From contig JAPJBO010000747.1 of the NCBI GenBank assembly GCA_030068145.1, positions 1 to 64,000 of the forward strand: a stretch of DNA of 64,000 bases. Direction: 5' to 3'. The notes beneath the pieces were generated by a model, which was not told the DNA's origin, did no database searches, and saw only the letters and a program-made list of their open reading frames with translations. Positions 5,761-53,593 of this stretch are shown piece by piece. The translations under genes were made by a program, and so were the position numbers. Every line of letters starts with the position of its first letter. Position 1 is the first letter of the stretch. The DNA is from Diplonema papillatum (lineage: Eukaryota > Euglenozoa > Diplonemea > Diplonemida > Diplonemidae).

Positions 5761-7519
5761 GCACTTGGGATCCCTTCTGTTCTTTGTCGGGCAGCATCGT
5801 CGAGCATTTCCTTTCAAGCTGGCGCTTATGTAAAAAAATTCACTCAACGTGACCCAACGCGTGCCGTAGTCTAGGCACACAGTGATTCGCCATAATTAAG
5901 TCTGTTGAGGGGACTTAGGAAGATATGTATGGCTAAAGAAGAAGTGTGAAAACGGGGTTTGCCTAAGGTTTCGAGGGTAAAGGTTCAAGAAAGAGCTACA
6001 CAGAATAAGAAAGCGGACCGCAGACGGTGCAAATCGTGTGCGGGGAGTGGCGTGGTGAATGAACGGACACAGTAACAAGTGGCGAGCGGCACGTGACCTC
6101 TGCCTGGTGCTGTGGATGTCGGAAGCGAACGATGGGAGATCAGGCCAACCGCGGGTAAACAGCGGTGCTGCATAAATAAGGATGCGGGGGAGTTGTAAAG
6201 GAAAGCTGGCAGCAACAACAGTGCGCGGCCGTTTTGCATTATTTGCTATCTGGAAGTAGTTGTGTGAGCCGCCGAAGCAGCCAGAGACAGCGGGCGGGGA
6301 ACATTCTTTCGTACCCCAGATTGCGTAGTTTCTGCGTAGTTCGTGGGGGTCTGTAAAAACGGCGAGGGCTATTGCCAAGTCCATGCGCTCTTGTGACCGA
6401 CAACGAGTTTGTGCGGAGTTTTTGCGTACTTCGCTACTTCGGTTTTTGGGGGTATCATATTTGCTCGCTCCTTTTTTTTGCTCTCATGGGTACCCGCCCC
6501 CAGGCATTCTCAACTTTCCGGTTTTGGTCGTGGCCTCCCTGGGACTGCATCGTTCGAGCAGGGACAACCTGGCCGGTAGACGTATTACCAAGCATTCGGG
6601 TCTGGCTGGCAACATGTTGACGGTGCAGTCCAGTGGACAAGCAACACTAGCAACACGACCATCAGTTTTCATTTTTAGAGTGAAATTTTGCTTGAAGATC
6701 TGGGATGCTTAAGGTCTTCGGGTGACCGTCGTCGAAAGGGTTCTTTCTTTATCGTACTTTTACCGTCTTACACACAAGTATTTTTCGTGGTAACAATGCT
6801 TTGTAAACACGAAAGTGAACGCTGGCAGCGTGTTTGGGAGAAGAGCAGCCTAACGATCATATTCACTCACTATCAATCACGAACAGGCTAATCCTCCCCC
6901 GGCACGTACAAAATATTTCCGAAGGCGGTATTAGGTATGTGCTTTTTTTTGTAGGTGGGTACGGCTGACGTTTTCGTTGACGCTGAAGGTCGAACGTGAA
7001 CTGGTGAACAGTTGGCCTGGGTGGTGCGCGTGCGGAAACACAAAAGGTTTGCGCAAAGAGGCTGGGACACGGCAACGCCGACGGTTTGCGTGGCTGGGCA
7101 GTTTGTGCTGGAGGGCCGGAATCAGCTTGTTTGCCATCGTGGTTGATGTCGAAGCTGATCGCACTGTTGTGCGCGTCTTCTCATTTCCCAAACCGTAGCG
7201 CTGCGCGGGCTGAAGTCCTACGGCAAGGGATCCCGTGGACTGCTACGGTATTTCGATTGTGCCGCTTCGAAACTCGCACCGAGGGTTTCTGATGCTTTCA
7301 TCGAGCTCAGATGTCTCCGCCACCAGTACCAGTACCAGTGAGATTCCACTGGTAGCGATGGGTCGTCCGGGAGACAACTCCATCTCTACCAGTGGAAATA
7401 CCCACTGGTACCCCGAAACCCCCGTATTCGTAGTTCGTGCGTATGAGTCGAACTTTGAGGACGTGAGCCCCTCCGAAGAGCTAGTAAACGACGGGTGGTT
7501 TTACGGGTAATGACAGGCC
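5761..7519. other. Unassigned 1.8-kb region
   Basis: No domain is recognised in any frame. A short diverged copy of dispersed repeat B starts near 5938 (TGTGAAAACGGGGTTTGCCT). A TTTTTAGAGTGAAATTTTGC motif and a GGTCTTCGGGTGACC motif, shared with repeat E relatives, lie at about 6674-6728. Confidence 0.5.
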
Positions 7520-12962: not shown

Positions 12963-14479
12963 CCATTCCAGCCCAGTGTAGCCTAGCGCAGCCCAGCACA
13001 GCCGAATTGTGTCTCGTTCGTGTCTCGATCATAAAGGAAAAGGTGTGTCAAGTGTACGGCAGGGAACTTCAAGTCAAAACAACGTAAGCTGCAAACGGGG
13101 TTACTACAGGCCTACAATACTAGCCTCAAAAAGGGGCGCTGGACGTGCAACAAGCAGTAGTATAACGAAGCCCTTGCAAACTTGAGCTGCGTAGGGCGCA
13201 CATTTGCATAGGTCACTGTTGCTTCCTGAGTTCGAAGCTCCTCGGTATCATTAGTGGCCAGAATCATTGTCGTGATCACTCTCATGATATGTGGCATCTG
13301 TCGCCACAACCAAGTACTCCCTCATAAAAGAGTCAACGAAGTCCGCTGTGACTGGCTCATTCGACTGAAAACTGGACGCCAAGAACAAGCACCGGCGTAC
13401 AGAGGCATTCAGCAATTTATTTCGCAGCTAAGTGCGCGTCAACTTTACGAGAGAGAAGAGAAGCATCTTGAAATGCTGCAGATAGTTCGCTTGTTTTGCC
13501 TCCCCTCAGCAGAGTCTGCGATAATGGACCTACTGGTAAATAGTCTCCCGGCTGCGCCCACCCCCAACCCCCCACCCCATCATCAGCGCGGAACCTGAGT
13601 GTCTGCAAACAGGACAGTGGTGTGAGTCTGGTTTGTCAAGCGGCTGTTCGTAGCTCGTCACAGCCAGGACCCGTGCGACTAGAGCACAAGCGAACCCGGG
13701 AGAAAGGGGGAAGGCAGGTGCGGGTGTAGACAAGAATGGGTCCGGTCCAACAGGCCATGGCAACAGGGATACAAATTTTCAGAGCGAAAGTTCGCTTTTT
13801 TAGAGTGAAACGTCGCTTTGACTCCGGGGTTTTAGAGTCTCCGGGTGACCTTTGGCAACATGGGAAGATATCCTTGCGCCCAAGATTTCCTTTGGGAGCT
13901 GCGTGCTCTTAAGGGTGGTGGCTACACGAGGTAAGAGACTCAGTGTCCCCCACCCCAGGCTGGCTCCCCGGGCCCGGCCCCCTTCAGTGGCTGGCCCCCC
14001 AGTGCCGTGCGTGGGGGTCAGGGTATTAGCGTGACCCTCAAAATCGTGTACAACCTGAAAATAATGTGAGGGATAGCCCTTTTCTGGTGGGGAAGCTTTG
14101 TTGGGCACGTTTTTGTCTCGAAGAAATGCAAGACGGGGGTTCGGCTAAAAGCTCTTCAGAAAAGCGCAGTTTGCGCGGAAGAAAAGCCTCTGCTTGCTGT
14201 TTGCACCGTGGCCATCCCGGTGCAGTGGGTTGGACCCCGGCTGACTGCACCAGGCGCACTTCACCGAGGACCCCCGTTTCAGATTGCGTCCCCCCCCCGT
14301 CTTGTCTAAGAACGGGTTTGGCTTATTATTGTTGACACAGGCCCCGCGCAGCGGCAAATTCTTTTTGGATACACTTTTGAGGGGGGGTGGTTTCTTGGCC
14401 CCGCGCAGCGGCAACATTTTTTTTTTGGGTATGTTTCTTGGTGATGTGTGTATGACTGCCCCCCCCCCCGGGTCCGCTT
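12963..14479. other. Unassigned 1.5-kb region with a repeat H fragment
   Basis: No domain is recognised. Positions 13574-13740 match dispersed repeat H (CATCATCAGCGCGGAACCTG onward). GGGTTTTAGAGTCTCCGGGTGACC-like sequence, shared with repeat E, lies near 13828-13852. Confidence 0.5.
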
Positions 14480-25124: not shown

Positions 25125-25815
25125 TATGCGGGTGGCAAAGTGACCGGGCGCCGGCCTTCAGGCAGGTGAGTCCGGGTTCGAACCCCGCCCATGACATTTT
25201 TCCGGTCGAAGATTGTTTTCGAGGTTTGTTGCGTTTCGGGGTCAAATGTGCCCGAAAATTGCGTTCTTGGCGGGTTTCTCAGTATCTCGCGGTATTTGGG
25301 TCACCCCGGGAAACGGAGTCGGGCGGCCGAGCTTGCCATCACAGGCCAAACTTGCTACGAGAACCGAACTTTGCTTCACCAGAACTCAGCTTCGTGCGAA
25401 CTTTGCTTCGTCCGAACTCAGCTGCGCCCGTACCAGAATTTAGCATCGCCCGAACTTTGCTTCGCCAGAACTTAACTTCGCCCGAGCGTTGCTTCGCCCG
25501 AACTCAGTCCGCCCGAACTTTTGCTTCGCCGGGGGGCGGCGGGGGGGGCGCCCACCCGGGTACCAGCGCCAAACTTTTCCCGCACTCGGTGGGTCCGGGG
25601 GGGGTGTCCCCCCGGGTACGAGCACCGACCTTGGCTTCACCCGGACTTTACACCCTGGCCGAACTTCGCTTCGTGCCCGAACTGTTTTTTAGTATTAGCG
25701 CAGCCTGAGCGCTTAGCAACGCCCGAACTAAGCATCACTCGAACTTAGCTTCACCAGCATTGCCCGAACTTAGCTTCGCCCGAACTTTACTGTTCCCCGA
25801 ACTTTAACTGCTGCC
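25125..25815 (+). mobile_element. SINE-satellite composite element, copy 1
   Basis: A tRNA-like head carries a pol III A box (TGGCAAAGTGACC, from 25133) and B box (GGTTCGAACC, 25175-25184). A body of about 130 bp follows (TTTTCCGGTCGA, AATGTGCCCGAAAA, TTTGGGTCACC). Next is an array of GAACTTTGCTTCGCCC units (25355-25800), and the element ends with GAACTTTAACTGCTGCC. Copy 2 at 38277-42065 has the same parts in the same order on the other strand. The tRNA-like arms do not pair well enough for a working tRNA gene. Confidence 0.82.
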
Positions 25816-28476
25816 TCCAGTCTCGCCACGCGCCGGCCTTAGCCGAGCGCACGTACTTTCTTTCTGTGCTGTTTTCTTGTGCTGAATCATAAAAAAAGGA
25901 GAGAGAGAGGACGAGTTGGAGTGCAGGGACCATCTCTCCGAGGAGTGAGCCGAGTTGCCTCGCATCTGACCTTTAAAACACGGCTGAGTCACGCATGCTC
26001 TTGACAGACGCTTGCGTCCGACATTTCGCACGCGCGTCGCAGTCTTGGGATGGACAAGGGGGTTTCCTCGGACTCGGAGGAGCTTCGGTACTTCACCGCC
26101 CCGTACTGTCCCAGGTCCAGCCTGCAGAATTCTGCAGAACTATGCGTCGGCACTGAATGTGAAGTGGAGAAGATTTCTGCTAAACAGTAGGTGGATCACC
26201 CCAGAAGATATCCTTTAAGCTCTGCGTAAACTTGAGGGTGTTGGATACACGGCTAATAGTATCTAGGTTGCGGGTTTTTTCGTGGTTGGTATCTAAGTTT
26301 GGGTTAGCGTTCTTTTTTTTTTTTTTTTTTCTCCCCGACGATCAGGTTATTAGCTTCATTTTGCCTCAGCTTTCCATATTCCGTCTCAATGGCCAAGTTT
26401 CTTTTCCCGCTCTGAGACCGAGAAGCTTTTGTTTAGGTTGCATGAAACTCCCAAAGGTGGGGGGTCCGGGGGGGTCCGCCCCCCCGGCGAACGGTACGGT
26501 ACATTCAGGTGAAAAAAGAGTTGCACTTCTCAGTCCGTTTGTCGCGTTAAACATGTTGACCAACATACTGGAGCCCACCTGTGTGACCGGCGCGGCTCCT
26601 TCAGGTGCACATTCCTGAAGGCAACAATCCATTCCCAATTCATCCACCACTCGGATACTGCGTGCTGGTAAATCATTCGTACGAGTAGAATGCAGACACG
26701 GAAATAGAGGCACTTGCGTCGACTCAGAAAGAATCTGGGCTGCTTTGGCGGTCGGGCGAGTTAGGGGCTGGGCATCGCCGGGCATGGTGGCTGGCTGGCA
26801 GAAGTTTGGGGCTGTCGCGGGGGCTGAGCCGAGTGCGAAAGTCGAGGCTCAGGCCCAGCCGACCGCCAGCCAGCTTCCTGGCACAGCGGCCTAGCCCACG
26901 CCTCCACCGGAACCCCACGACTGTTTTCATCGAAGGTCGTTTTTTTTGCACTTATCCAGCTGACGGAATTTGGAATGGGAAGCTAATGCCCTGCCGCATC
27001 CCGAAGGTAGTTGATTCCATTGCGCAGGGTCCCTCTACCAGCGGGATTGGTTTTTCTCTTCAATATGGGGGGCGTTTTTTGTGTTTCCGATCGTCCGGTG
27101 TGGGACGTACAGATTGGTATCTGTCGACCTTCTGTTTTGTAAGGTTCGGCAGGTCATTTTGTTTTGGCAGATTTCTTCTTCACAGCCGGGGTATTTTCCA
27201 CATTCTCTCTTATATTCCTAGTTGGTTTCCCTACATTCCTAGCGTTATTTTATTCCTGTTTGAGATGCACGATGGCCCTTCCCTTTAATCCCCCCTAATC
27301 AGGTGGGATGGTGAAGACTTTTCCAACTCAAGGAATGCAGCGATAATTAGACCTTTTCTCTTTGTTAGCGTTAGTTGTGGATTAGAAGGGGACTTTCTAA
27401 GAGGCTAATTTTTTGATTATTTTGTTGGTTCTTCTTTTCCTGTCGGCATTTTGTTGGCATTTGATGCCTTTTGGCCGCCGGGGCGTTGTTTTTGGTGCTG
27501 GTGACTTCTGGCCGCCGGGGGCGGGACTAATATGAGTTATTTCCCGTCGTATAGCCTACTTGTTTGCAGTGGTTAACCAAAGTCGGAGTCGGCGGTGTTT
27601 AATTCTTCAGTTTTGGTTTCCGCGATCGCCACACGTTTGGATTATTTGATGCCGGCGCCCTAACTTGGCCCTGCAGGAGGCAGTGGTTACAGATGTGACT
27701 CGCCACGAATGCCTGCGGCAACGCTGTCGCCAACGAGAGTTCGACGCAAAGTTTCACCTGGAATGACCCACGTTACTGTCGTCGTCTGCCCAGCTGTTGT
27801 AACAGCGCCTTGCATACGCCTCCTCTGCTTCAGCTCCACAGAGTCAATTTTTAGCCTTATATTCTTGAGTTAACAATGCATTGTTGGTACTAAAAAATAG
27901 TAGTTGGCAGCGTACTACATGAAACTTACCAAAGCAGGTGAGTTCCGCTAGTTATCTGATTCTGCAGACTGTTTTTATCGGATTCTGCACTGGTTCCGCT
28001 AACTTCAACTTCGGCCACGATTGACATGATTATAAGCCTCGCGAAAGGGCCTGCTCTACCAGAAGCGGTTTAGTGCCTGACGCAAGCAGGGCACTCCGCT
28101 GTTCTTTTTCGCTCCTTGTAGTGTCGCAATCAAACATCCATGCAATTGACGCAAGCGGGGCGTCGAAGTCCGTTGCTCGTTTCGCTCTTTCGCCTTTGGC
28201 TGCGTTCTTGGCGACTTCCCAAGAACCGGTTTTCTACCGGGGGTCTGGATCGTACCAGAATACCCTGGTTTCCTGGCCTGGTCTGGTGACCAGGTCACCG
28301 TCCCCAAGCTGCGGTACCTTGTCTTTTTGCCATACAGCAAACGGACGGACCCTCGCCACCCAGAGATGGTGGGTTCCGATAAGGCAGGGTCTAGTCCGTT
28401 TTGGAGTAGTTGCATGGACTCGGAAACCGATAATATTCTTTCCTTCTCATTCATCAATTCTTTCATTTTTCTTTTT
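25816..28476. other. Unassigned 2.7-kb region
   Basis: No gene is recognised in any frame. Notable only are a T-tract at 26312-26330, G-rich patches near 26460, and a paired GACGCAAGC.GGGC word near 28078 and 28148. Confidence 0.5.
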
Positions 28477-28647
28477 AGCGTTTATTGTGGTTTAGAGGTT
28501 CGGTGTTTTAGGGTCTCCGGTTGACCATTGAGGCTGTGAGGCGGGTGGTATGTGGGTAGTAGGTATGCTTAAATACGGCTAGCCATGTTTGTAAGTGTTG
28601 CGACCGACACCAAGAAGAAATTCGCTTTGAATTTAGTCTTGGGCCCC
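28477..28647 (+). repeat. Dispersed repeat E, copy 1
   Basis: A block of 171 bp from AGCGTTTATTGTGGTTTAGA to TTTAGTCTTGGGCCCC, including GGGTCTCCGGTTGACC. It is nearly repeated in the same orientation at 32956-33135; the first 110 bp also occur at 53484-53593. The first two copies flank the reverse transcriptase/deubiquitinase element. It contains no ORF. Confidence 0.85.
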
Positions 28648-28870
28648 CCACGCGCATGCATGTTGAGCAGGGGTTGCCATGCAGCTCGTATCGGTCTGTA
28701 ATATGCGTTCTTACTTCCTTTGGGTTGAGGAGGACGTGCGGTGGGAGGGTCGGGTAGTAGAAAGAGAAGGTGAAGGGCTAAAAAAAAAATATTTCTTTTT
28801 GCGTAAGTGGCGACTGCTTGTTGTCCTCCGCAGTTAAGGTACTCTGAATACACTCTGGCATCGTGGCTGG

Positions 28871-30232
28871 TTATCTGGTCGTAGCTCCTGGTTTGCGGTG
28901 TTTAGTTTTGCACCACGGTTTGTGGTGTCGTAGGCTTGTAAATTGTGGTTTGTTCGGAGTCTGTCCGTCGCTGTGACAGTACGGGCAAATCTCCCTTTTG
29001 CCTGCTGAGCTTGCAGGCGTGGTGCTGTGGCGTGGTGGTGTGCGTCGTAGTTTCTTCTTGCAAAAACGCAGGTGGATGCTCAGGCCGTGAATGCCTTTTA
29101 TTGCAGTGCCAGTTTTCGTCGTTCGTGTGTGGCAGTTCGGACATTGGAGTGCCTCCGTGTCGGGCGTGTGGCCCGGAGTAGGCTCTAGGCCACGCATTTC
29201 TTCGAGAATTTGTTGGGTTGGCGTGGCAGTGCCGCTGCTCTTGTCGGATGATGGGACGTCGGTGGTGGATTGAGAGCTGCGTTGTGCGGTTTCGTTCCCC
29301 GTGCGCGTTGGGGCCTGAAGTGCGGCGTGCGGTGTTGAGTTTGTCATTGCGTCGTCGTCGAGGTGGCAGGGAACCGGTTCGTGTACAGGTTCTGTTGGGT
29401 CAAACGTATAGAAGAGTACATTCGTACTCTGGTCGGTGTAGCCGCGATTGGCTGAATGCGTGACGTTGGCGTTGTCGAAGTGTGTCCATCTTGCGTCATT
29501 GTATGGGGTATCGTTTAACACGTGTACAGTGTAGTGTCCTGCGTTGTCTCGTCCTGCGTGGGCAACAACTGCTCTGAGCTTCAGCGGTTGTGCCTGGTTA
29601 GGCACCAGCAGCGTTTGGTCAGCTGCAACCGCTTGGCGATTCTCCCTTGTGTGCTGATTACGTGTTATGCGTAGAACGAGGCTTCCTTGTATCCTGCTGA
29701 TGCCGTGTTGCATGGTCGTCTTATTGGAGGTTCCGCACTCGCATCTGTACGTGTCCGGTTTGTGTGGGGCACAGTGGAAGTCCAGGCATCCTTGTACCGT
29801 GCTTGCAACAGGGGCGATGACAGCCATGTCGTTCCAGTGACCGTTCGTGTTGTTGTGCTTGCATTTGGCACAACGCGTTGTCGTCGAGTACCAGTGTCGT
29901 ATGGCGTCGAAGTTGTCAGACTCGCCTGGTTGACAGCATGTGTGTTCTGCGTTTTCGTCTACGATTGACGCGAGTACCACCCTCATTGCTTCCTCAAAGT
30001 CGTGTTGTTGGCCCGCTTCGAAGGGATGTTTCAGGTTCTGGTGCAGTCTAACGACGGTGTCCGGTGTTCTTATCCGCTGTGTCCAGTCGTACGCAGCCAA
30101 AGTGCATTCCCCTGTTCTGTGTGCTGCACATGTGACGTATTTCGATATCTGTTCGGCGAGGTTGGTGGCCGAGATCACGTTAAGTACCGCTTGTAAATAG
30201 CATGTATTTACAGCTGACAGGGTTTGCCGCAT
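28871..30232 (-). CDS. USP-family (C19) deubiquitinase with zinc fingers, in a retroelement
   Basis: The 453-residue ORF has the ubiquitin-specific protease boxes. The Cys box is NTCYLQAVLN with nucleophile Cys11. QQHDFEEAMRVVLAS (75-89) is the usual Q-D region. A CxxC pair (121-124) with C164/C166 resembles the USP zinc ribbon. The His box AVVAHAGRDNAGHYTVHV has His233, then WTHFDNANV (Asp253/Asn254) and NVLFYTF. After a Ser/Thr-rich linker come two C2HC fingers: C364, C367, H387, C391, and C416, C419, H436 or H437, C441. Family knowledge says such enzymes cut ubiquitin from proteins; the fingers suggest nucleic-acid binding. At about 270 residues the protease is small for a USP. Its start overlaps the end of the RT ORF by 25 bases in another frame, so the two look like parts of one element. 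A captured host gene is the alternative. Confidence 0.82.
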   Translation of the reverse strand: MRQTLSAVNTCYLQAVLNVISATNLAEQISKYVTCAAHRTGECTLAAYDWTQRIRTPDTVVRLHQNLKHPFEAGQQHDFEEAMRVVLASIVDENAEHTCCQPGESDNFDAIRHWYSTTTRCAKCKHNNTNGHWNDMAVIAPVASTVQGCLDFHCAPHKPDTYRCECGTSNKTTMQHGISRIQGSLVLRITRNQHTRENRQAVAADQTLLVPNQAQPLKLRAVVAHAGRDNAGHYTVHVLNDTPYNDARWTHFDNANVTHSANRGYTDQSTNVLFYTFDPTEPVHEPVPCHLDDDAMTNSTPHAALQAPTRTGNETAQRSSQSTTDVPSSDKSSGTATPTQQILEEMRGLEPTPGHTPDTEALQCPNCHTRTTKTGTAIKGIHGLSIHLRFCKKKLRRTPPRHSTTPASSAGKREICPYCHSDGQTPNKPQFTSLRHHKPWCKTKHRKPGATTR

Positions 30233-31368
30233 CGTGGTCTTGGGTTCCTTGTTCTGGTAGTTACTCTGTTGGCGGCGAAGGCGGCGATTGCTGCGGCGAC
30301 GGTGATTGGAGCGACGATGCTTGTAACTCGTTCGGCGACTGTAAGCGGTCTAGGCGGTTGCAAGCGGGAAGACGGTTCGCTGGCTAGGTCTAGAGGGATG
30401 AAGTTCGCCGGTTTGTGTTTTCCTGCGTACTCGGGTTCGTCGATACGCTGTTTTCCGGCTTTGTGTCTGGCAATCGAGAACCCGAGGAACGGCTTGAGTT
30501 GATTCAGCAACCGTGGCAGGTTTGCGAACTCTTCAGTCAGCCAAGCGTTCCAAGGTGCGTACAGGATACGCGGGTTGTGCCCTCTCTCGATCATGGAGTA
30601 CACGCTCCTTTGAATCTCCACGCGCAAGTCTTGCCAGTGGTTGGTCTGTCGTATCGCTCTGATGAGAGCGCCTTTGAAAATTCCACTGGCTTGCGACTTG
30701 GGGGCTGTGGAGAGCTCGTGGGTGTAGCGTGTTCCGTAGTTCTTTGGCTGGATGGAAAGGCGTATGTGGGGTGCATGGGGTGGGTCAGGTCGTTCTACTC
30801 GTATGCGTACTCCGAGAAAAACGACGTCGTCGTGTGCCGTTGTGGTGTTCTTGTAGCGCATATGGTAAAGGTGTTGAGGTGGAGGTGTCGTCCCCCAGTT
30901 GAGGAAGTCATCGATGAAGCGGAGCGTATGCGCGTGTGCTTTCGCCTCTTCGATCTTGCCTTCTTCTACGAGCTTGTCAATGTAGGCTTTTTCAATCCGG
31001 TAACAGAACAGATTCGCAATGTCAGAGCTCGCGTTACCTCCCATGGGAATGCCGTCAACCTGCCTGTAAACGTTGTCACCCTGAGCGATGAAACTGTTGT
31101 TGACGATCATAGTTAGCAGTTCTTTGATCTGTGTTTGATCTTTTTGTTCGTCGACTTCACTTTCTTTCAGCAACGCTTCCTTCGAGTTGTGCCCCAGATT
31201 TGGTGTAGCCTTCGTACCTTTTTCGAAAGATGTCGAAGCGATGGATGGCACCCAAACCTGCCAACGAACAAGACTTGGTCGGCAAGCATGGGTGCCAGCA
31301 CCCGGTAATTCCGGCACCAATAAGAATAGGTTTTGTGAGTCTGGGAGCGTGTTTGCACGCTTTCCCAA
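30208..31368 (-). CDS. Reverse transcriptase of uncertain retroelement family
   Basis: The ORF of 386 residues carries RT core motifs: YRQVDGIPMGGNASSDIANL (101-120), the B motif with GIPMG, and LRFIDDFLNWG (149-159), the catalytic C motif with FIDD. After these come VVFLGVRIRV and a segment (NHWQDLRVEIQRSVYSMIERGH) similar to the thumb of the large animal and protist RT group spelled GIPMGTNCAPL...YIDD, which some would place near Penelope-like elements. The fingers region upstream is not recognisable as a complete domain. The last 40 residues include a hydrophobic stretch (VAPITVAAAIAAFAANR). I see no integrase, RNase H or GIY-YIG domain. The deubiquitinase ORF follows directly on the same strand. 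Confidence 0.75.
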   Translation of the reverse strand: MGKRANTLPDSQNLFLLVPELPGAGTHACRPSLVRWQVWVPSIASTSFEKGTKATPNLGHNSKEALLKESEVDEQKDQTQIKELLTMIVNNSFIAQGDNVYRQVDGIPMGGNASSDIANLFCYRIEKAYIDKLVEEGKIEEAKAHAHTLRFIDDFLNWGTTPPPQHLYHMRYKNTTTAHDDVVFLGVRIRVERPDPPHAPHIRLSIQPKNYGTRYTHELSTAPKSQASGIFKGALIRAIRQTNHWQDLRVEIQRSVYSMIERGHNPRILYAPWNAWLTEEFANLPRLLNQLKPFLGFSIARHKAGKQRIDEPEYAGKHKPANFIPLDLASEPSSRLQPPRPLTVAERVTSIVAPITVAAAIAAFAANRVTTRTRNPRPRCGKPCQL

Positions 31369-32095: not shown

Positions 32096-32955
32096 TTTCA
32101 TCTCGTTTATCCGGCCATCCGGCCAAAGTGGCTGATCCCTAACAAGAGCGCAGCCCCCCCCCCCGGGGGGGGCCCCCCCTGCAGCTGCAGGGTTTCGCTT
32201 GGCAATGCGGTGGACCCTTTTTCCCCCTTCAGTTTCCGTTGTGTCTCGCACCGGTTGATCTATTCCGGCCTGTTTATTTTTTCCGCGCTGCGTTGTTAAT
32301 TAGCCTTCACATTACATCGTGGGGTAATCTATAATGAGTCTCCGGCGTCGGGTGAGAGAAGGAGGAGAGGAAGAATGCAGAACCCGAAGATTCCTAAGTG
32401 AACGCGGCCGTATTGGGAGACGACCGCGTGTGCGAAGGTGCCATGGTATATGGCTTAAAGCAGTGCTCAACTTTTCCAAATTTACCGTACTACTAACCGT
32501 GACAAAGTGGTCAGAATAGCCACAATTCACCCACAATACCTTGTAGCCATTGACATAGTTTTGTGGCCAGAATTTTTTTCCCTTGTGGCCATTGAAAATG
32601 GGCAGTAATCAAAAATGCCACCGTGTGAATCTATTCCGTCGACACGAACTTTTCACACGCAACATGCTACAAGGGTCCCCAATTCCACCGAGACATGGGG
32701 AAAATATTCTAGCCACAATGCCTTGTGGGAAAGTTGCGGGTGCACAGTACTGCTTAAATTTTTACTTTTACTAACGTTAAAGAACTCAATGCTTGAAATG
32801 GGTAGCCGAGTTTCGCCAGTCTTCGGGGGACTGGATACACGGTGAAGCCCAGCCTCTGCTGACCACGTGAAACACGTTCCCAGTGAAAGTTTGCTTGTGC
32901 GCGTGTGTAACTCCCGGTCACAAGAACACGATATGCGGTCGGCCATCTCCTTTTC
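32096..32955. other. Unassigned spacer
   Basis: No gene is recognised. CCCCCCCCCCGGGGGGGGCC near 32155 is a strong GC hairpin. Confidence 0.5.
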
Positions 32956-33135
32956 AGCGTTTATTGTGGGTTAGAGGTTCGCTGTTTTAGGGTCTCCGGT
33001 TGACCATTGAGGCTGTGAGGTGGGTAGTATGAGGGATGTAGGTATGATTATACACTTTAACTACGGCTAGCCAAGTTTGTAAGTGTTGTGACCGACACCA
33101 GGAAGAAATTCGCTTTGAATTTAGTCTTGGGCCCC
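32956..33135 (+). repeat. Dispersed repeat E, copy 2
   Basis: About 90% similar to copy 1 across its length, with an extra TACACTTTAACTACGG segment that is also partly present in copy 3. It lies about 350 bp upstream of the kinase ORF. Confidence 0.85.
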
Positions 33136-38276: not shown

Positions 38277-41200
38277 GCAGCAGTTAAAGTTCGGGAAACA
38301 GTAAAGTTCGGGCGAAGCTAAGTTCGGGCGAAGCTAAAGTTCTGGCGAAGCGAAGTTCTGGTAAAGCAAATGGGCGATGCTAAGTTCGGGCGAAGCAAAG
38401 CATAGTTCGGGTGAAGCGAAGTTCTGGTGAGGCTAATTCTGGTGAAAGCATAGTTCGGGCGAGCAAAGTGCTGGTGAGGCACATGGGCGATGCTAAGTTC
38501 GGGCGAAGCAAAGCATAGTTCGGGTGAAGCTAAGTTCTGGTGAGGCTAATTCTGGTTGAAGCAAAGTTCGGGCGAAGCAAAGCAAAGTTCGGGCGAAGCA
38601 AAGCTAAGTTCGGGCGATGCTAAGTTCTGGTGAAGCAAAGCTCGGGCGAAGCAAAGCATAGTTCGGGTGAAGCGGAGTTCTGGTGAGGCTAAGTTCTGGT
38701 GAAAGCATAGTTCGGGCGAGCAAAGTGCTGGTGAGGCAAATGGGCGATGCTAAGTTCGGGCGAAGCAAAGCATAGTCGGGTGAAGCTAAGTTCTGGTGAG
38801 GCTAATTCTGGTGAAAGCAAAGTTCGGGCGAAGCAAAGAAAAGTTCGGGCGAAGCAAAGCAAAGTTCGGGTGAAGCTAAGTTCTGGTGAGGCTAATTCTG
38901 GTGAAAGCAAAGTTCGGGCGAAGCAAAGCAAAGTTCGGGTGATGCTAAGTTCTGGTGAAGCAAAGCTCGGGCGAAGCAAAGCATAGTTCGGGTGAAGCGA
39001 AGTTCTGGTGAGGCTAAGTTCTGGTGAAAGCATAGTTCGGGCGAGCAAAGTGCTGGTGAGGCACATGGGCGATGCTAAGTTCGGGCGAAGCAAAGCATAG
39101 TTCGGGTGAAGCTAAGTTCTGGTGAGGCTAATTCTGGTGAAAGCAAAGTTCGGGCGAAGCAAAGCAAAGTTCGGGCGAAGCAAAGCAAAGTTCGGGTGAA
39201 GCTAAGTTCTGGTGAGGCAAATTCTGGTGAAAGCAAAGTTCGGGCGAAGCGAAGCAAAGCAAAGTTCGGGCGATGCTAAGTTTTGGTGAAGCAAAGTTCG
39301 GGCGAAGCAAAGCATAGTTCGGGCGATGCTAAGGTCTGATGAAGCAAAGTTCGGGCGAAGCAAAGCTAAGTTCGGGCGATGCTAAGTTCTGGTGAAGCAA
39401 AGCTCGGGCGAAGCAAAGCATAGTTCGGGTGAAGCGGAGTTCTGGTGAGGCTAAGTTCTGGTGAAAGCATAGTTCGGGCGAGCAAAGTGCTGGTGAGGCA
39501 AATGGGCGATGCTAAGTTCGGGCGAAGCAAAGCATAGTCGGGTGAAGCTAAGTTCTGGTGAGGCTAATTCTGGTGAAAGCAAAGTTCGGGCGAAGCAAAG
39601 AAAAGTTCGGGCGAAGCAAAGCAAAGTTCGGGTGAAGCTAAGTTCTGGTGAGGCTAATTCTGGTGAAAGCAAAGTTCGGGCGAAGCAAAGCAAAGTTCGG
39701 GCGAAGCAAAGCAAAGTTCGGGCGAAGCAAAGCAAAGTTCGGGCGATGCTAAGTTCTGGTGAAGCAAAGTTCGGGCGAAGCAAAGCATAGTTCGGGCGAT
39801 GCTAAGGTCTGATGAAGCTAAGTTCGGGCGAAGCAAAGCTAAGTTCGGGCGATGCTAAGTTCTGGTGAAGCAAAGCTCGGGCGAAGCAAAGCATAGTTCG
39901 GGTGAAGCGAAGTTCTGGTGAGGCTAAGTTCTGGTGAAAGCATAGTTCGGGCGAGCAAAGTGCTGGTGAGGCACATGGGCGATGCTAAGTTCGGGCGAAG
40001 CAAAGCATAGTTCGGGTGAAGCTAAGTTCTGGTGAGGCTAATTCTGGTGAAAGCAAAGTTCGGGCGAAGCAAAGCAAAGTTCGGGCGAAGCAAAGCAAAG
40101 TTCGGGCGATGCTAAGTTCTGGTGAAGCAAAGCTCGGGCGAAGCAAAGCATAGTTCGGGTGAAGCGGAGTTCTGGTGAGGCTAAGTTCTGGTGAAAGCAT
40201 AGTTCGGGCGAGCAAAGTGCTGGTGAGGCAAATGGGCGATGCTAAGTTCGGGCGAAGCAAAGCATAGTCGGGTGAAGCTAAGTTCTGGTGAGGCTAATTC
40301 TGGTGAAAGCAAAGTTCGGGCGAAGCAAAGAAAAGTTCGGGCGAAGCAAAGCAAAGTTCGGGTGAAGCTAAGTTCTGGTGAGGCTAATTCTGGTGAAAGC
40401 AAAGTTCGGGCGAAGCAAAGCAAAGTTCGGGCGAAGCAAAGCAAAGTTCGGGTGATGCTAAGTTCTGGTGAAGCAAAGCTCGGGCGAAGCAAAGCAAAGT
40501 TCGGGTGAAGCGAAGTTCTGGTGAGGCTAAGTTCTGGTGAAAGCATAGTTCGGGCGAGCAAAGTGCTGGTGAGGCACATGGGCGATGCTAAGTTCGGGCG
40601 AAGCAAAGCATAGTTCGGGTGAAGCTAAGTTCTGGTGAGGCTAATTCTGGTGAAAGCAAAGTTCGGGCGAAGCAAAGCAAAGTTCGGGCGAAGCAAAGCA
40701 AAGTTCGGGCGAAGCAAAGCAAAGTTCGGGCGATGCTAAGTTCTGGTGAAGCAAAGTTCGGGCGAAGCAAAGCATAGTTCGGGCGATGCTAAGGTCTGAT
40801 GAAGCTAAGTTCGGGCGAAGCAAAGCTAAGTTCGGGCGATGCTAAGTTCTGGTGAAGCAAAGCTCGGGCGAAGCAAAGCATAGTTCGGGTGAAGCGAAGT
40901 TCTGGTGAGGCTAAGTTCTGGTGAAAGCATAGTTCGGGCGAGCAAAGTGCTGGTGAGGCACATGGGCGATGCTAAGTTCGGGCGAAGCAAAGCATAGTTC
41001 GGGTGAAGCTAAGTTCTGGTGAGGCTAATTCTGGTGAAAGCAAAGTTCGGGCGAAGCAAAGCAAAGTTCGGGCGAAGCAAAGCAAAGTTCGGGCGATGCT
41101 AAGTTCTGGTGAAGCAAAGCTCGGGCGAAGCAAAGCATAGTTCGGGTGAAGCGAAGTTCTGGTGAGGCTAAGTTCTGGTGAAAGCATAGTTCGGGCAAAG

Positions 41201-42065
41201 CAAAGCAAAGTTCGGGCGAAGCAAAGCAAAGTTCGGGCGAAGCAAAGCAAAGTTCGGGCGAAGCAAAGCAAAGTTCGGGCGATGCTAAGTTCTGGTGAAG
41301 CAAAGCTCGGGCGAAGCAAAGCATAGTTCGGGTGAAGCGAAGTTCTGGTGAGGCTAAGTTCTGGTGAAAGCATAGTTCGGGCAAAGCAAAGCAAAGTTCG
41401 GGCGAAGCAAAGCAAAGTTCGGGCGAAGCAAAGCAAAGTTCGGGCGATGCTAAGTTCTGGTGAAGCAAAGCTCGGGCGAAGCAAAGCATAGTTCGGGTGA
41501 AGCGAAGTTCTGGTGAGGCTAAGTTCTGGTGAAAGCATAGTTCGGGCAAAGCAAAGCAAAGTTCGGGCGAAGCAAAGCAAAGTTCGGGCGAAGCAAAGCA
41601 AAGTTCGGGCGAAGCAAAGCAAAGTTCGGGCGATGCTAAGTTCTGGTGAAGCAAAGTTCGGGCGAAGCAAAGCATAGTTCGGGCGATGCTAAGGTCTGAT
41701 GAAGCAAAGTTCGGGCGAAGCAAAGCAAAGTTCGGGCGAGGCTAAGTTCTGGTTAAGCAAAGTTCGGGCAAAGCAAAGCATGAGGCTAAGTTCTGGTGAA
41801 AGCAAAGTTCAGGCGAAGCAAAGCAAAATTCGGGCGAAGCAAAGTTCTGGTGAGGCAAATGGGCGATGCTACGTTCTGGTAGGCTGACTCAAACTACCCA
41901 AGGTGACCCAAAACTGCCAGATATTGAGAGACTCGCAAGTTTCGGGCACATTAGACCCGAAAACCAACAAATCCCGAAGAATCATTTTCGACCGGAAAAG
42001 TGTCCTCGGCCGGGTTCGAACTGGGGTCTTCAAGCCCTGAAGGCGTGCGCCGTTCACTCTGCCAT
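38277..42065 (-). mobile_element. SINE-satellite composite element, copy 2 (expanded)
   Basis: Read on the minus strand it starts with an A box (TGGCAGAGTGAAC at 42063-42051) and a B box (AGTTCGAACC near 42021-42012), and continues with the same SINE body as copy 1. A 3.6-kb GAACTTTGCTTCGCCC array follows (41880-38290), and the element closes with the same tail, GAACTTTAACTGCTGCC (ending 38277). It is five times longer than copy 1, entirely because of the array. Confidence 0.85.
38290..41880 (-). repeat. 3.6-kb satellite array with higher-order structure
   Basis: The base unit is about 16-21 bp, GTTCGGGCGAAGCAAAGCAAA with variants GTTCTGGTGAAGC and GGCGATGCTAA on the plus strand. Blocks of about 590-740 bp marked by GTGCTGGTGAGGCACATGGG recur at about 38468, 39050, 39488, 39958, 40200, 40560 and 40950. 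The last third is a shorter-period expansion. Confidence 0.95.
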
Positions 42066-44434: not shown

Positions 44435-47400
44435 CTGATTAATATTGTAGATTTGGACGGGTTCTTAAAGAGCGAAAAGTTCTAGAAAACCACGGAGCGA
44501 ATCCGATCCGAGATAACATGGAACGGATCGGAATGTGCCGAATCGGACTGGAAACCCCACGAGGCGAATCCGAACCGACACAACGTATCAAATCGGACGG
44601 GGAAAACGCGAAGCGAACCGAGACATCATGTAACGACACAATCAGAATTTGCCGAATCGGACTGGAAAACACGAAGCGAATCCGATCGGAGACAGCATTT
44701 TATAACGGAACAGAATTTTGACTGGAAGCACGAAGCGAATCCGAGCCGAGGCAAAATGTTACGGATCAGAATTTTCCTAATCGGACGGAAAAAACGCGAA
44801 GCGAACCGAGACAGCATGTAACGACAAAATCAGAATTTGCCGAATCGGACTGGAAAACGCGAATCCGATCGGAGACAACATTTTATAACGGAACAGAATT
44901 TTGCCGAGCGAATCCGAGCCGAGACAAAATGTTCTCCCATTGGTACATGTCCATTAACCTAAACGCGTGTAATTGAGACCCCGCCCTCAGCCCCAAAAGT
45001 GTCTCAATTACAAGCGTTTTCTACTGTCTCAATTACACGGGGGAGGGTAGGTATGTCGTTAAATGATGTCTCGGTTCGCTTCGCGTTTTCCCCGTCCGAT
45101 CAGGAAAATTCTGATCCGCTAGCACCACTGGATTGGCACACTGCACGATGGGGTGTCGAGGCTCGCTTTGTTCGGTACAGGTGTCACAGTGCCACAATAG
45201 AAATACATTAGGTCATTAGCGGTTGAAATTGGGACACTTGTGGGAAAATTACGAAAATAGGGTGTCTCAATTGCACGGGAGGTAGGTAATCAGAATTTGC
45301 CGAATCGGACTGGAAAACGCGAATCCGATCCGAGACAACATTTTATAACGGAACAGAATTTTGCCGAATCGGACTGGAAAAGCACGAAGCGCAATCCGAG
45401 CGAACCGGGCGGGGGAAACGCGAAGCGAATCCGAGCCGAGACAGCGCGGAGCCGGAGACGGTCCGCTGGCTCAGAAACGGTGCGTGCTGACTGCACCAAT
45501 AAGAGATGTGAAGGCGGGGTTTTAGAGTTAAAGTTCGCTAAATTCCGGGGGTTTGGGGTCTCCGTGTGACCGTTCATGAATGGGTTCTCTTAGAGCAAGA
45601 AAGGGCTATATGGTCACGGGTTGTATATTTGGTGCACGCTTTCGTTATGTGTTATGGCTTGCCATTTTTGCCTGGAGGGCTTTTCGTGTTATTCTGTAGA
45701 TGCTTTGAGCTATCTTGGTGTCTATGCTTTCAGTCGAGAGAAGATCGGCACACCTGTCGTCGCACTGGTCGACGAATGCGCGAGATTTGTCCGGGCCGCG
45801 GCACGTGTCGCATACGCACACAAACCGGTACGTCTGCTGTAGCAACCCGCGTCTTTCCGCCGTCGGCAGGTACGGGCCGCCGTAGCTGATGCTGATCGGC
45901 TGCCCCTTCTCGATCGGCCGCAGGGCGACGACTTTGATGATCGACTCGCCTGTGTCCCCCGTCTCCTGCATCACCTGCGCGGTGGCCGACGGGTTGCAGT
46001 TGTGCTCCATCAGCGACGCGAAGGGGAACACGGCGATGCCCGAATACCCGGATCTCCGGATGGATATCGCATTGCACTGCACCGTCAGCAGCAGGCGCAC
46101 GGCTTGGTCGATGGTCAGCACGTCTCTGTACTCGGCGAGGGCCGCCAGCGAGTGCACGTAAGCGGTGGAGAGGGACATGTACGACGCGACGAGCTCCGGG
46201 TCCGCCTCTTTCATCGGGCAGTAGAGGTCGAACACGTGGAAGCACTTCGCCTTCGATCCGCTTGCCTTCGCGCCGTGGGCGGCCTCGAAGAATTGCGCGA
46301 GGACCGGGAGCACGCCGTCTTTGAACACCACACCTGTGTTGCGACAGAGAGGAGGATAAAGAGTTTGACCCACCGGTTTGATATACCTCGTTGAACGGGG
46401 ATAGTAGTAGTATGCAGCAACAATCTGTGACGATAGACTTCACACGGCGTGGGCGGCCTCGAAGAATTGCGCGAGAACCGGGAGCACGCCGTCTTTGAAC
46501 ACCACACCTGTGTTGCGACAAAGAGGAGGATAAAGAGTTTGACCCACCGGTTTGATATACCTCGTCGGACGGGGATAGTAGTAGTAGCTTGAACTTGGTA
46601 TGCAGCAACAATCTGTGACGATAAGTTGCACAAGCCTTTTTGATGTACCTCGTCGAACGGGGACGGTAGTTGCAGTATTTTGAACTTGATGTGCAGCAAC
46701 AATCTACTGCACAAGCCTTAGCAGTAGTAGTAGTTTGCACTTGTCATGCAGCAACTATCTGTGACGATAGACTGCATGGACTACCTCTTTGCACGCGTCG
46801 TGCCATGCTTCGGTCGCATCTTGCCCCGCGTACTGGTGCACGCTTCACGCCCGTTGTGGTGTCTGACGAGCCCGAGGAATCACCAGACGATTCAGCATTC
46901 AGCACATTTCCTTTTCTCCCTCGCAGGTTGGCTCCGCGGCCGAGATCTCGACTCCTCTCTGTTCCTTGCCTCCGCCTGCTCGTCTTCGCGGCTCCGGACA
47001 GTCGTGGTAGCAAATTGGAACCTGCACGACGGAAGCGCGCAAGCCTCAGAAGCTGGTGTTAAAGGTGGAACCAAAAAAGCGGGTGTCGCACCCGCTTTTC
47101 GGGTGTGGATTCACACGCGTTTTGGTTGTAGCACACCCGCTTTTTCGGGTGTGCTCTTCGACTTCAGCTTCTGAGGTTCGACCTCACCGTGTAACTCTGT
47201 ATAACCCCTCGTAAAGTGGGTTGTGTCTGTGTGGTCCTTTTAAAGATGGATTTGTGTCTGCACATCCGCGAGCTCACCCACGGTGACGAAAGAAGTGCGT
47301 AGTTTTGTTTTATTTTTTTACTTGTTTGTTGTCGACAACATAATATTATTGTGGTTGAGGTGTCATTCAGATGTAGATCTAAAGCCGCCCACGTCAAATT

Positions 47401-53420: not shown

Positions 53421-53483
53421 TTTGGTCGAAGGGCAAGTATTTCTTGGGTTGTAAGCCAGAGCAAGCCAGCAAGTCTCACTTCT

Positions 53484-53593
53484 AGCGTTTATTGTGGTTT
53501 AGAGGTTCGGTGTTTTAGGGTCTCCGGTTGACCATTGAGGCTGAGAGGCGGGTGGTATGAGGGTAGTAGGTATGCTTATACACTTTAACTTCT
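53484..53593 (+). repeat. Dispersed repeat E, copy 3 (short)
   Basis: It matches the first 110 bp of the other copies, including GGGTCTCCGGTTGACC, and stops after TATACACTTTAACT. Confidence 0.83.

Follow-up and report, generated by a model that had tools for sequence, protein, structure and literature searches.

The window analysed here comprises 64,000 nucleotides of DNA from the marine flagellate Diplonema papillatum (assembly GCA_030068145.1, contig JAPJBO010000747.1, positions 1 to 64,000 of the forward strand) and contains, on the minus strand, two open reading frames (ORFs) at 28871-30232 and 30208-31368. In the initial annotation these were described as a retroelement in which a reverse transcriptase (RT) with the motifs GIPMG and FIDD and a ubiquitin-specific protease (USP, peptidase class C19) with two C2HC fingers are encoded by two ORFs overlapping by 25 bases. 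The overlap was confirmed (30208-30232) and the pairing of RT with USP stood. The two-ORF organization did not, the relatives of this element encoding one polyprotein that also includes an endonuclease-like domain.

The window copy (31132 to 28473) was compared by blastn with another locus of the same family, L009 (family A; further families are designated B to F), and shares with it 99.4% identity over 2673 columns. Because the element sequence starts at 31132, the upstream ORF reads through flanking DNA at 31133-31368, and the remaining RT fragment lacks the fingers, motif A and the KLHK box. A tblastn comparison with the protein P0001 agreed with a truncated RT, the main alignment running from residue 308 on. 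Small length differences relative to L009, one of them near the RT-USP junction, disrupt the frame of the window copy. In L009, L010 and L011, the RT, the USP and the finger motifs are open in one ORF of 1027 codons. Because these three copies read through in frame, the overlap of two ORFs is peculiar to the window copy, and an RT/USP frame overlap serving as an expression device was ruled out. Judged from its sequence, this stretch of the window is a degenerate, shortened copy of a repeated retroelement, and its two-ORF layout is a defect of that copy (Table 1).

Table 1. Features of the retroelement copy and its surroundings in the window.
Feature	Position	Strand	Basis
Retroelement copy, family A, 5'-truncated, repeated	28473..31132	-	blastn against L009; 3' end common to other copies
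RT, C-terminal part (motif B GIPMGG, motif C FIDD and the region beyond)	30211..31132	-	homology to other copies and homologous proteins
Non-element flanking DNA inside the listed RT ORF	31133..31368	-	homology to other copies ends at 31132
ORF with USP part and C-terminal finger motifs, 453 aa	28871..30232	-	corresponds to the C-terminal part of the RT polyprotein in L009, L010 and L011
USP (UCH, C19) catalytic domain, residues 8-275	29408..30211	-	Pfam; Cys11, His233, Asp253, zinc cysteines 121/124/164/166
Zinc-finger-like motif 1, C-terminal, CPNCHTRTT...GLSIHLRFC	29060..29143	-	sequence pattern only
Zinc-finger-like motif 2, C-terminal, CPYCHSDG...LRHHKPWC	28910..28987	-	sequence pattern only
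3' untranslated region and 3' terminus of the element	28473..28870	-	common to copies; flanks differ beyond
Second, separate piece of 3' tail from this family (88.6% to L009)	32951..33135	-	comparison with L009

The predicted product of the downstream ORF is a USP-type (C19) protease. It matched the Pfam family UCH with an E-value of 7.8e-17 (62.1 bits against a cut-off of 23.9, residues 8-275), and UCH was also above the cut-off in L009 (family A), L020 (D), L026 (E) and L059 (F; 56.2 bits), as well as in the proteins P0004, P0006, P0011 and P0012. Comparison of the window USP as a single sequence with the PDB gave weak matches (42 rows, best 0.0029), all of them to USPs, and a profile of families A-E matched the catalytic domain of USP36 at 8.7e-9, spanning the Cys and His boxes. 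Nothing was obtained at E 0.01 in a protein search with the window USP alone. The residues that had been proposed as catalytic or zinc-binding (Cys11, His233, Asp253 and the CxxC pairs) proved largely invariant in an alignment of ten domains: Cys11, His225 and His233 are invariant, the Asp253 position holds Asp in nine domains and Asn in P0012, and three of the four zinc-ligand cysteines are invariant, the fourth being kept in 9/10. Family F keeps the catalytic Cys and His and, by eye, reads HYNN at the place of Asp253. Two CxxC...H...C-type motifs, the candidate fingers of the initial annotation, are present after the window USP at the C-terminal end, and such motifs trail the protease in families A-E, in family F and in the copy on contig C1222.

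The GIPMGG and FIDD motifs were present in the window RT ORF, which alone gave an E-value of 0.042 against RVT_1, below the cut-off. This ORF was identified as an RT because five homologues matched it in a phmmer search (best 2.9e-44). Two of them are from D. papillatum, and one of the five, P0004, carries RT and UCH together. A PHROGs search with the RT gave no match, and none of the 33 pattern matches from a scan of IMG/VR (alignment A1) was confirmed. The KLHK box and the MYTxLP motif seen in the RTs of the relatives are motifs of the Penelope/telomerase clade, to which these RTs may belong.

The assembly to which the window contig (C747) belongs, 271 Mb in 2910 contigs, was searched with the window USP and gave at least 94 matches (93 of 1265 candidates scored). 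Among the matches listed, 14 span residues 1-453 at 98-100% identity, and the others are partial or show 36-40% identity, with a few at 56-75%. Forty-six distinct USP loci were checked for an RT upstream, in a first set of 26 (20 plus C317, C974, C538, C1143, C1076 and the window) and a second set of 20. RT, or a C-terminal remnant of it, was found at 45 of the 46; in the truncated copies L008, L036, L042, L043 and L047 just 26-40 RT residues are left. A search of the genome with the family A RT gave at least 93 rows (93 of 655 candidates scored) and revealed family F, which is absent from the USP match list and whose RT is 82-83% identical to that of family A. Among the matches listed, 13 of the 93 RT rows share an open frame length of exactly 2210 codons, and each of these 13 stands at 82%. 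Three RT loci new to the USP list were read downstream (C42 and C1125, of family F, and C1222), and a USP was present in all three. Neither an RT without the protease nor the protease as a lone host gene was seen, with three new loci read among the 93 RT rows and ~1 kb read upstream of L045, the sole USP locus without RT. Since RT lies upstream at nearly all USP loci and USP follows at the three further RT loci, an inherited pairing is supported by these sequences. A piece of RT lying by chance beside a host USP gene would fit the different frames of the two window ORFs; given the 45 loci with RT upstream and the in-frame fusion in other copies, this reading is hardly credible.

A segment of 6.2 kb is common to L010 (6088-8001) and L011 (3-1523) at 99.9%; it includes an upstream ORF for which a Pfam search of L010 gave no match. 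This is probably a segmental duplication carrying a truncated copy, so that the two loci probably represent the same insertion. At L012 (~2659, G000:C551) a family A copy starts directly after the apparent 3' tail of another element family, in a head-to-tail arrangement.

The longest ORFs of families B, C and D comprise 2762, 2602 and 2663 codons, respectively. Read from the N-terminus, L013 and L020 encode a region rich in Pro, Ser and Thr (1258 residues in the former and 1150 in the latter), then an endonuclease-like domain, the RT (motifs KLHK, MYT, GIPMGG and IDDF), the USP and two finger motifs; in all 11 ORFs holding both, the endonuclease-like domain precedes the RT. A GIY-YIG match was obtained in 4/4 endonuclease-region sequences (best E 2.4e-4), with the pattern VVY...YVGQT...R...E...N. 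The very long predicted polyprotein (2663-2762 codons) would suit a protease that cuts the element's own polyprotein, as a retroviral protease does. USPs, however, cut after the Gly-Gly end of ubiquitin, and the four ORFs scanned contain 1-4 Gly-Gly pairs each, one of which belongs to the GIPMGG motif of the RT. Because none of these pairs stands in an LRGG context, polyprotein cutting is very improbable.

The 3' ends of the eight family A loci compared with L009 coincide to within a few bases, and their 5' ends fall at seven positions, one of them shared by L010 and L011. At four of five loci (C167, C233, C618 and C187; three of family D and one of family B) a 3' tail abuts the 5' region, always at one and the same junction; no such tail was found at C52 (L033). 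The common 3' end, the variable 5' ends and the tail-to-head junctions therefore suggest, as a signature at the level of sequence, that the element is a Penelope-like retroelement. No consistent target-site duplication was evident in an unsystematic inspection of the junction letters.

A direct repeat in the window (28471-28647 and 32950-33135) was considered as a pair of long terminal repeats (LTRs) and ruled out. Its halves are unequal when compared with L009 (99.4% for the copy and 88.6% for the fragment), with ~1.8 kb of non-element DNA between fragment and copy, and the other copies show that the repeat consists of the 3' tail of the copy and a separate, more diverged tail fragment; it was therefore not taken as an LTR pair. 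Short 3'-tail fragments from several families of element, all on the minus strand, are located in the window at 53480-53578, 45520-45665, 13796-13853, 6673-6740 and 32951-33135. A sequence like CTTCTAATCCACAA(A/C)TAACGCTAA, at ~27390 of the window and ~2508 of L024, resembles the tail of a further element family. Diverged AAAGTTCGGGCGAAGC units also form a large satellite-like array at 38286-41859 of the window (206.2 copies according to Tandem Repeats Finder), which has a short inverted counterpart at 25364-25530.

Ratios of nonsynonymous to synonymous substitution rates (dN/dS) between families were obtained by Nei-Gojobori counts. For the USP they were 0.10 (B-C), 0.16 (B-D, C-D and D-E, the last near saturation) and 0.33 (A-B and A-C, with dS ~1.9), the remaining four pairs being saturated. 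The RT gave 0.06-0.07 for B-C, B-D and C-D, and the finger region gave 1.88 for B-C (with very few changes), 0.21 for B-D and C-D, and 0.12-0.13 for A-B and A-C. The USP is under purifying selection in the measurable family pairs. Between families A and F the amino-acid identity is 84% in the RT, 58% in the linker, 41% in the USP and 42% in the finger region, the proportion of synonymous differences (pS) being 0.67-0.76 throughout; the ratio of nonsynonymous to synonymous proportions (pN/pS) is 0.52-0.58 in USP and fingers and 0.13 in the RT. USP and fingers therefore diverge far faster than the RT, the catalytic Cys and His being kept, in a comparison that cannot separate fast evolution from replacement by recombination because the synonymous sites are near or at saturation. 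Such A-F values would be expected if the USP had been picked up from a host gene as a passenger and were drifting without enzymatic relevance. This is improbable in view of the low dN/dS in the pairs B-C, B-D, C-D and D-E, the catalytic Cys and His present in all ten aligned domains and in family F, and the USP frames open in several families.

We consider it probable, on these data jointly, that the window holds a degenerate copy of a Penelope-like retroelement whose relatives encode a polyprotein with an N-terminal region, a GIY-YIG-like endonuclease, an RT, an active USP and two finger-like motifs. Several observations weigh against this. The GIY-YIG match reached 20.6 bits in the displayed member, compared with a Pfam cut-off of 22.6, and gave 0.026 in the whole protein; a profile search of the PDB with the endonuclease alignment gave no match; and family A, with its truncated copies, showed no endonuclease, family F not having been searched for one. 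Neither of the two finger motifs follows the USP domain in P0004, P0006, P0011 or P0012, and P0005, P0007, P0008 and P0009 lie under the UCH cut-off, their gene models holding the start of the domain only. The fast divergence of the USP could reflect weak constraint outside the active site or an old replacement. A tree of the RT (19 rows, with no Penelope or telomerase references included) does not resolve the deep branches, so that more than one acquisition of the USP may have taken place, and it settles neither the relation of the groups nor whether the deubiquitinase classes form clades. No hammerhead was found among 19 Rfam rows up to E 0.5 at five loci; the hammerhead ribozyme is common, not universal, in the pseudo-LTRs (pLTRs) of Penelope-like elements.

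By analogy with Penelope-like elements and LINEs (long interspersed nuclear elements), the GIY-YIG-like endonuclease would nick the DNA and the RT would copy the element RNA at the nick. As part of one protein with the RT, the USP, a putatively active deubiquitinase, is proposed to have the protein-RNA complex of the element itself as its substrate; by stripping ubiquitin from this complex it would slow its destruction by the host. This deubiquitination step, taken alone, is put forward tentatively, our judgement falling just short of an even balance. The fast-changing non-catalytic surface of the USP fits contact with a changing host factor.

The main alternative concerns substrates at the insertion site. 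There the USP would act on host chromatin or repair proteins (ubiquitinated histones or repair factors, for example). This would facilitate target-primed reverse transcription or conceal the nick, and the zinc fingers would keep the USP on nucleic acid. In favour of this, the protease and the endonuclease-like domain are parts of a single protein, families A-F and the C1222 copy have finger motifs after the protease, and a like motif is located near the C-terminus of P0016, a relative with an OTU domain. For the Ginger transposons, the available text of PMC2836005 proposes that OTU and Ulp1 domains act on repair factors in transposition. Such fingers are nevertheless missing after the USP in P0004, P0006, P0011 and P0012, and we regard action at the insertion site as rather unlikely.

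A profile search of proteins (8000 candidates scored) found 20 proteins, with a match to a deubiquitinase class other than USP among them. In P0016, an ENA record, the RT is followed by an OTU match above the cut-off (1.8e-6), and the motif near its C-terminus has the CxxC-RTT-G-GL-H-C spacing of the USP families. A similar C-terminal finger occurs in families A-F and in this OTU relative, and none was seen in the other USP relatives or in the Josephin-like ones. The latter (P0002, P0003, P0014 and P0015) have a different C-terminal stretch with a conserved GECGWA block that is Josephin-like by eye; neither Pfam nor a PDB search found Josephin in these C-termini. With hhalign, the Cys and DGWFS blocks were in register, but the score of 20.6 did not exceed significantly that of one of five shuffles (20.2); the USP, OTU and RT controls gave 13.5-13.8. 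P0015 is a EukProt entry with a transcriptome-type name. No deubiquitinase was found by Pfam in P0017-P0021; P0018 (1053 aa) and P0019 (963 aa) are ENA records of related RT proteins, the former with a YVGQT motif near the N-terminus. In the D. papillatum gene models P0008, P0010 and P0013 the RT is joined to UNC-93, to WD40 (in a protein named dynein intermediate chain) or to sub-threshold calpain-like sequence, and these are presumably misjoined models or insertions into genes. A Penelope-like lineage in more than one protist may keep its RT and swap deubiquitinases (USP, OTU and perhaps a Josephin-like one), the USP changing faster than the RT, with its spread depending on beating a changing host ubiquitin defence. 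This generalization is possible, our assessment leaning against it.

If the USP is active, the retroelement brings its own deubiquitinase within the RT protein, and the removal of ubiquitin becomes a step in retrotransposition that is open to test. Alongside the Ulp1-like proteases of LINEs and the OTU and Ulp1 domains of DNA transposons, this suggests repeated recruitment of ubiquitin-type proteases by unrelated mobile elements. Some dispersed Diplonema repeats are explained by this element, and Diplonema genes annotated as deubiquitinases can be parts of transposons, as in the case of P0011, named a ubiquitin hydrolase. The D. papillatum genome paper names, in the available text, LINE-1, SLACS, R2, jockey, TATE, MULE and Helitron-type sequences (PMC10161547), and its main text contains no occurrence of 'ubiquitin'. 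Ubiquitin, Ulp1 and OTU have no occurrence in an article on accessory domains of retrotransposons (PMC6338049), nor does the string 'deubiquitin' in PMC3846280 and PMC11167929. No report of a USP in a retroelement was seen among the titles and abstract openings listed by searches of open-licence literature, Repbase being outside this scope, which does not establish absence from print.

The endonuclease upstream of the RT, the order observed in the 11 Diplonema ORFs, is reportedly shared by the permuted Naiad and Chlamys groups of Craig et al. 2021, with an N-terminal endonuclease. Penelope-like elements such as Penelope and Poseidon, as the accessible parts of PMC3846280 and PMC11167929 describe them, resemble the Diplonema element in having an endonuclease and a telomerase-type RT in one ORF, in 5' truncation and in pLTRs formed by partial head-to-tail tandems, like the junctions found here; an endonuclease cut and reverse transcription starting internally are also described (PMC11167929). 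The Diplonema element differs from them in its USP, its two C-terminal finger motifs, its Pro/Ser/Thr-rich N-terminal region of 1,150-1,260 residues and the lack of a detected hammerhead. According to excerpts of PMC4640811, the NeSL and Utopia LINEs carry Ulp1-like proteases and are likewise RT elements with a ubiquitin/SUMO-type cysteine protease; they belong, however, to another RT class, have a restriction-like endonuclease and place the protease, Ulp1-like and not USP, at the N-terminus. The Ginger1 elements, with OTU or Ulp1 C-terminal domains, and the Helentrons, with OTU, also join a transposition protein to a ubiquitin/SUMO protease, but are DNA transposons without RT, as far as the available text of PMC2836005 and PMC6431247 goes. 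The same part of PMC2836005 names one Trichomonas vaginalis transposase_11 protein with a peptidase C19 domain, in which a USP-class domain is fused to a mobile-element enzyme as in Diplonema, although this enzyme is a DNA transposase and no RT is present. With the cellular USPs (USP36, USP8, USP46/12 and USP7), the Diplonema domain has in common the Cys and His boxes and the zinc-ribbon cysteines, as judged by sequence or profile comparison; it differs in being a short catalytic domain fused to an RT, and its matches to the PDB as a single sequence are weak (best 0.0029).

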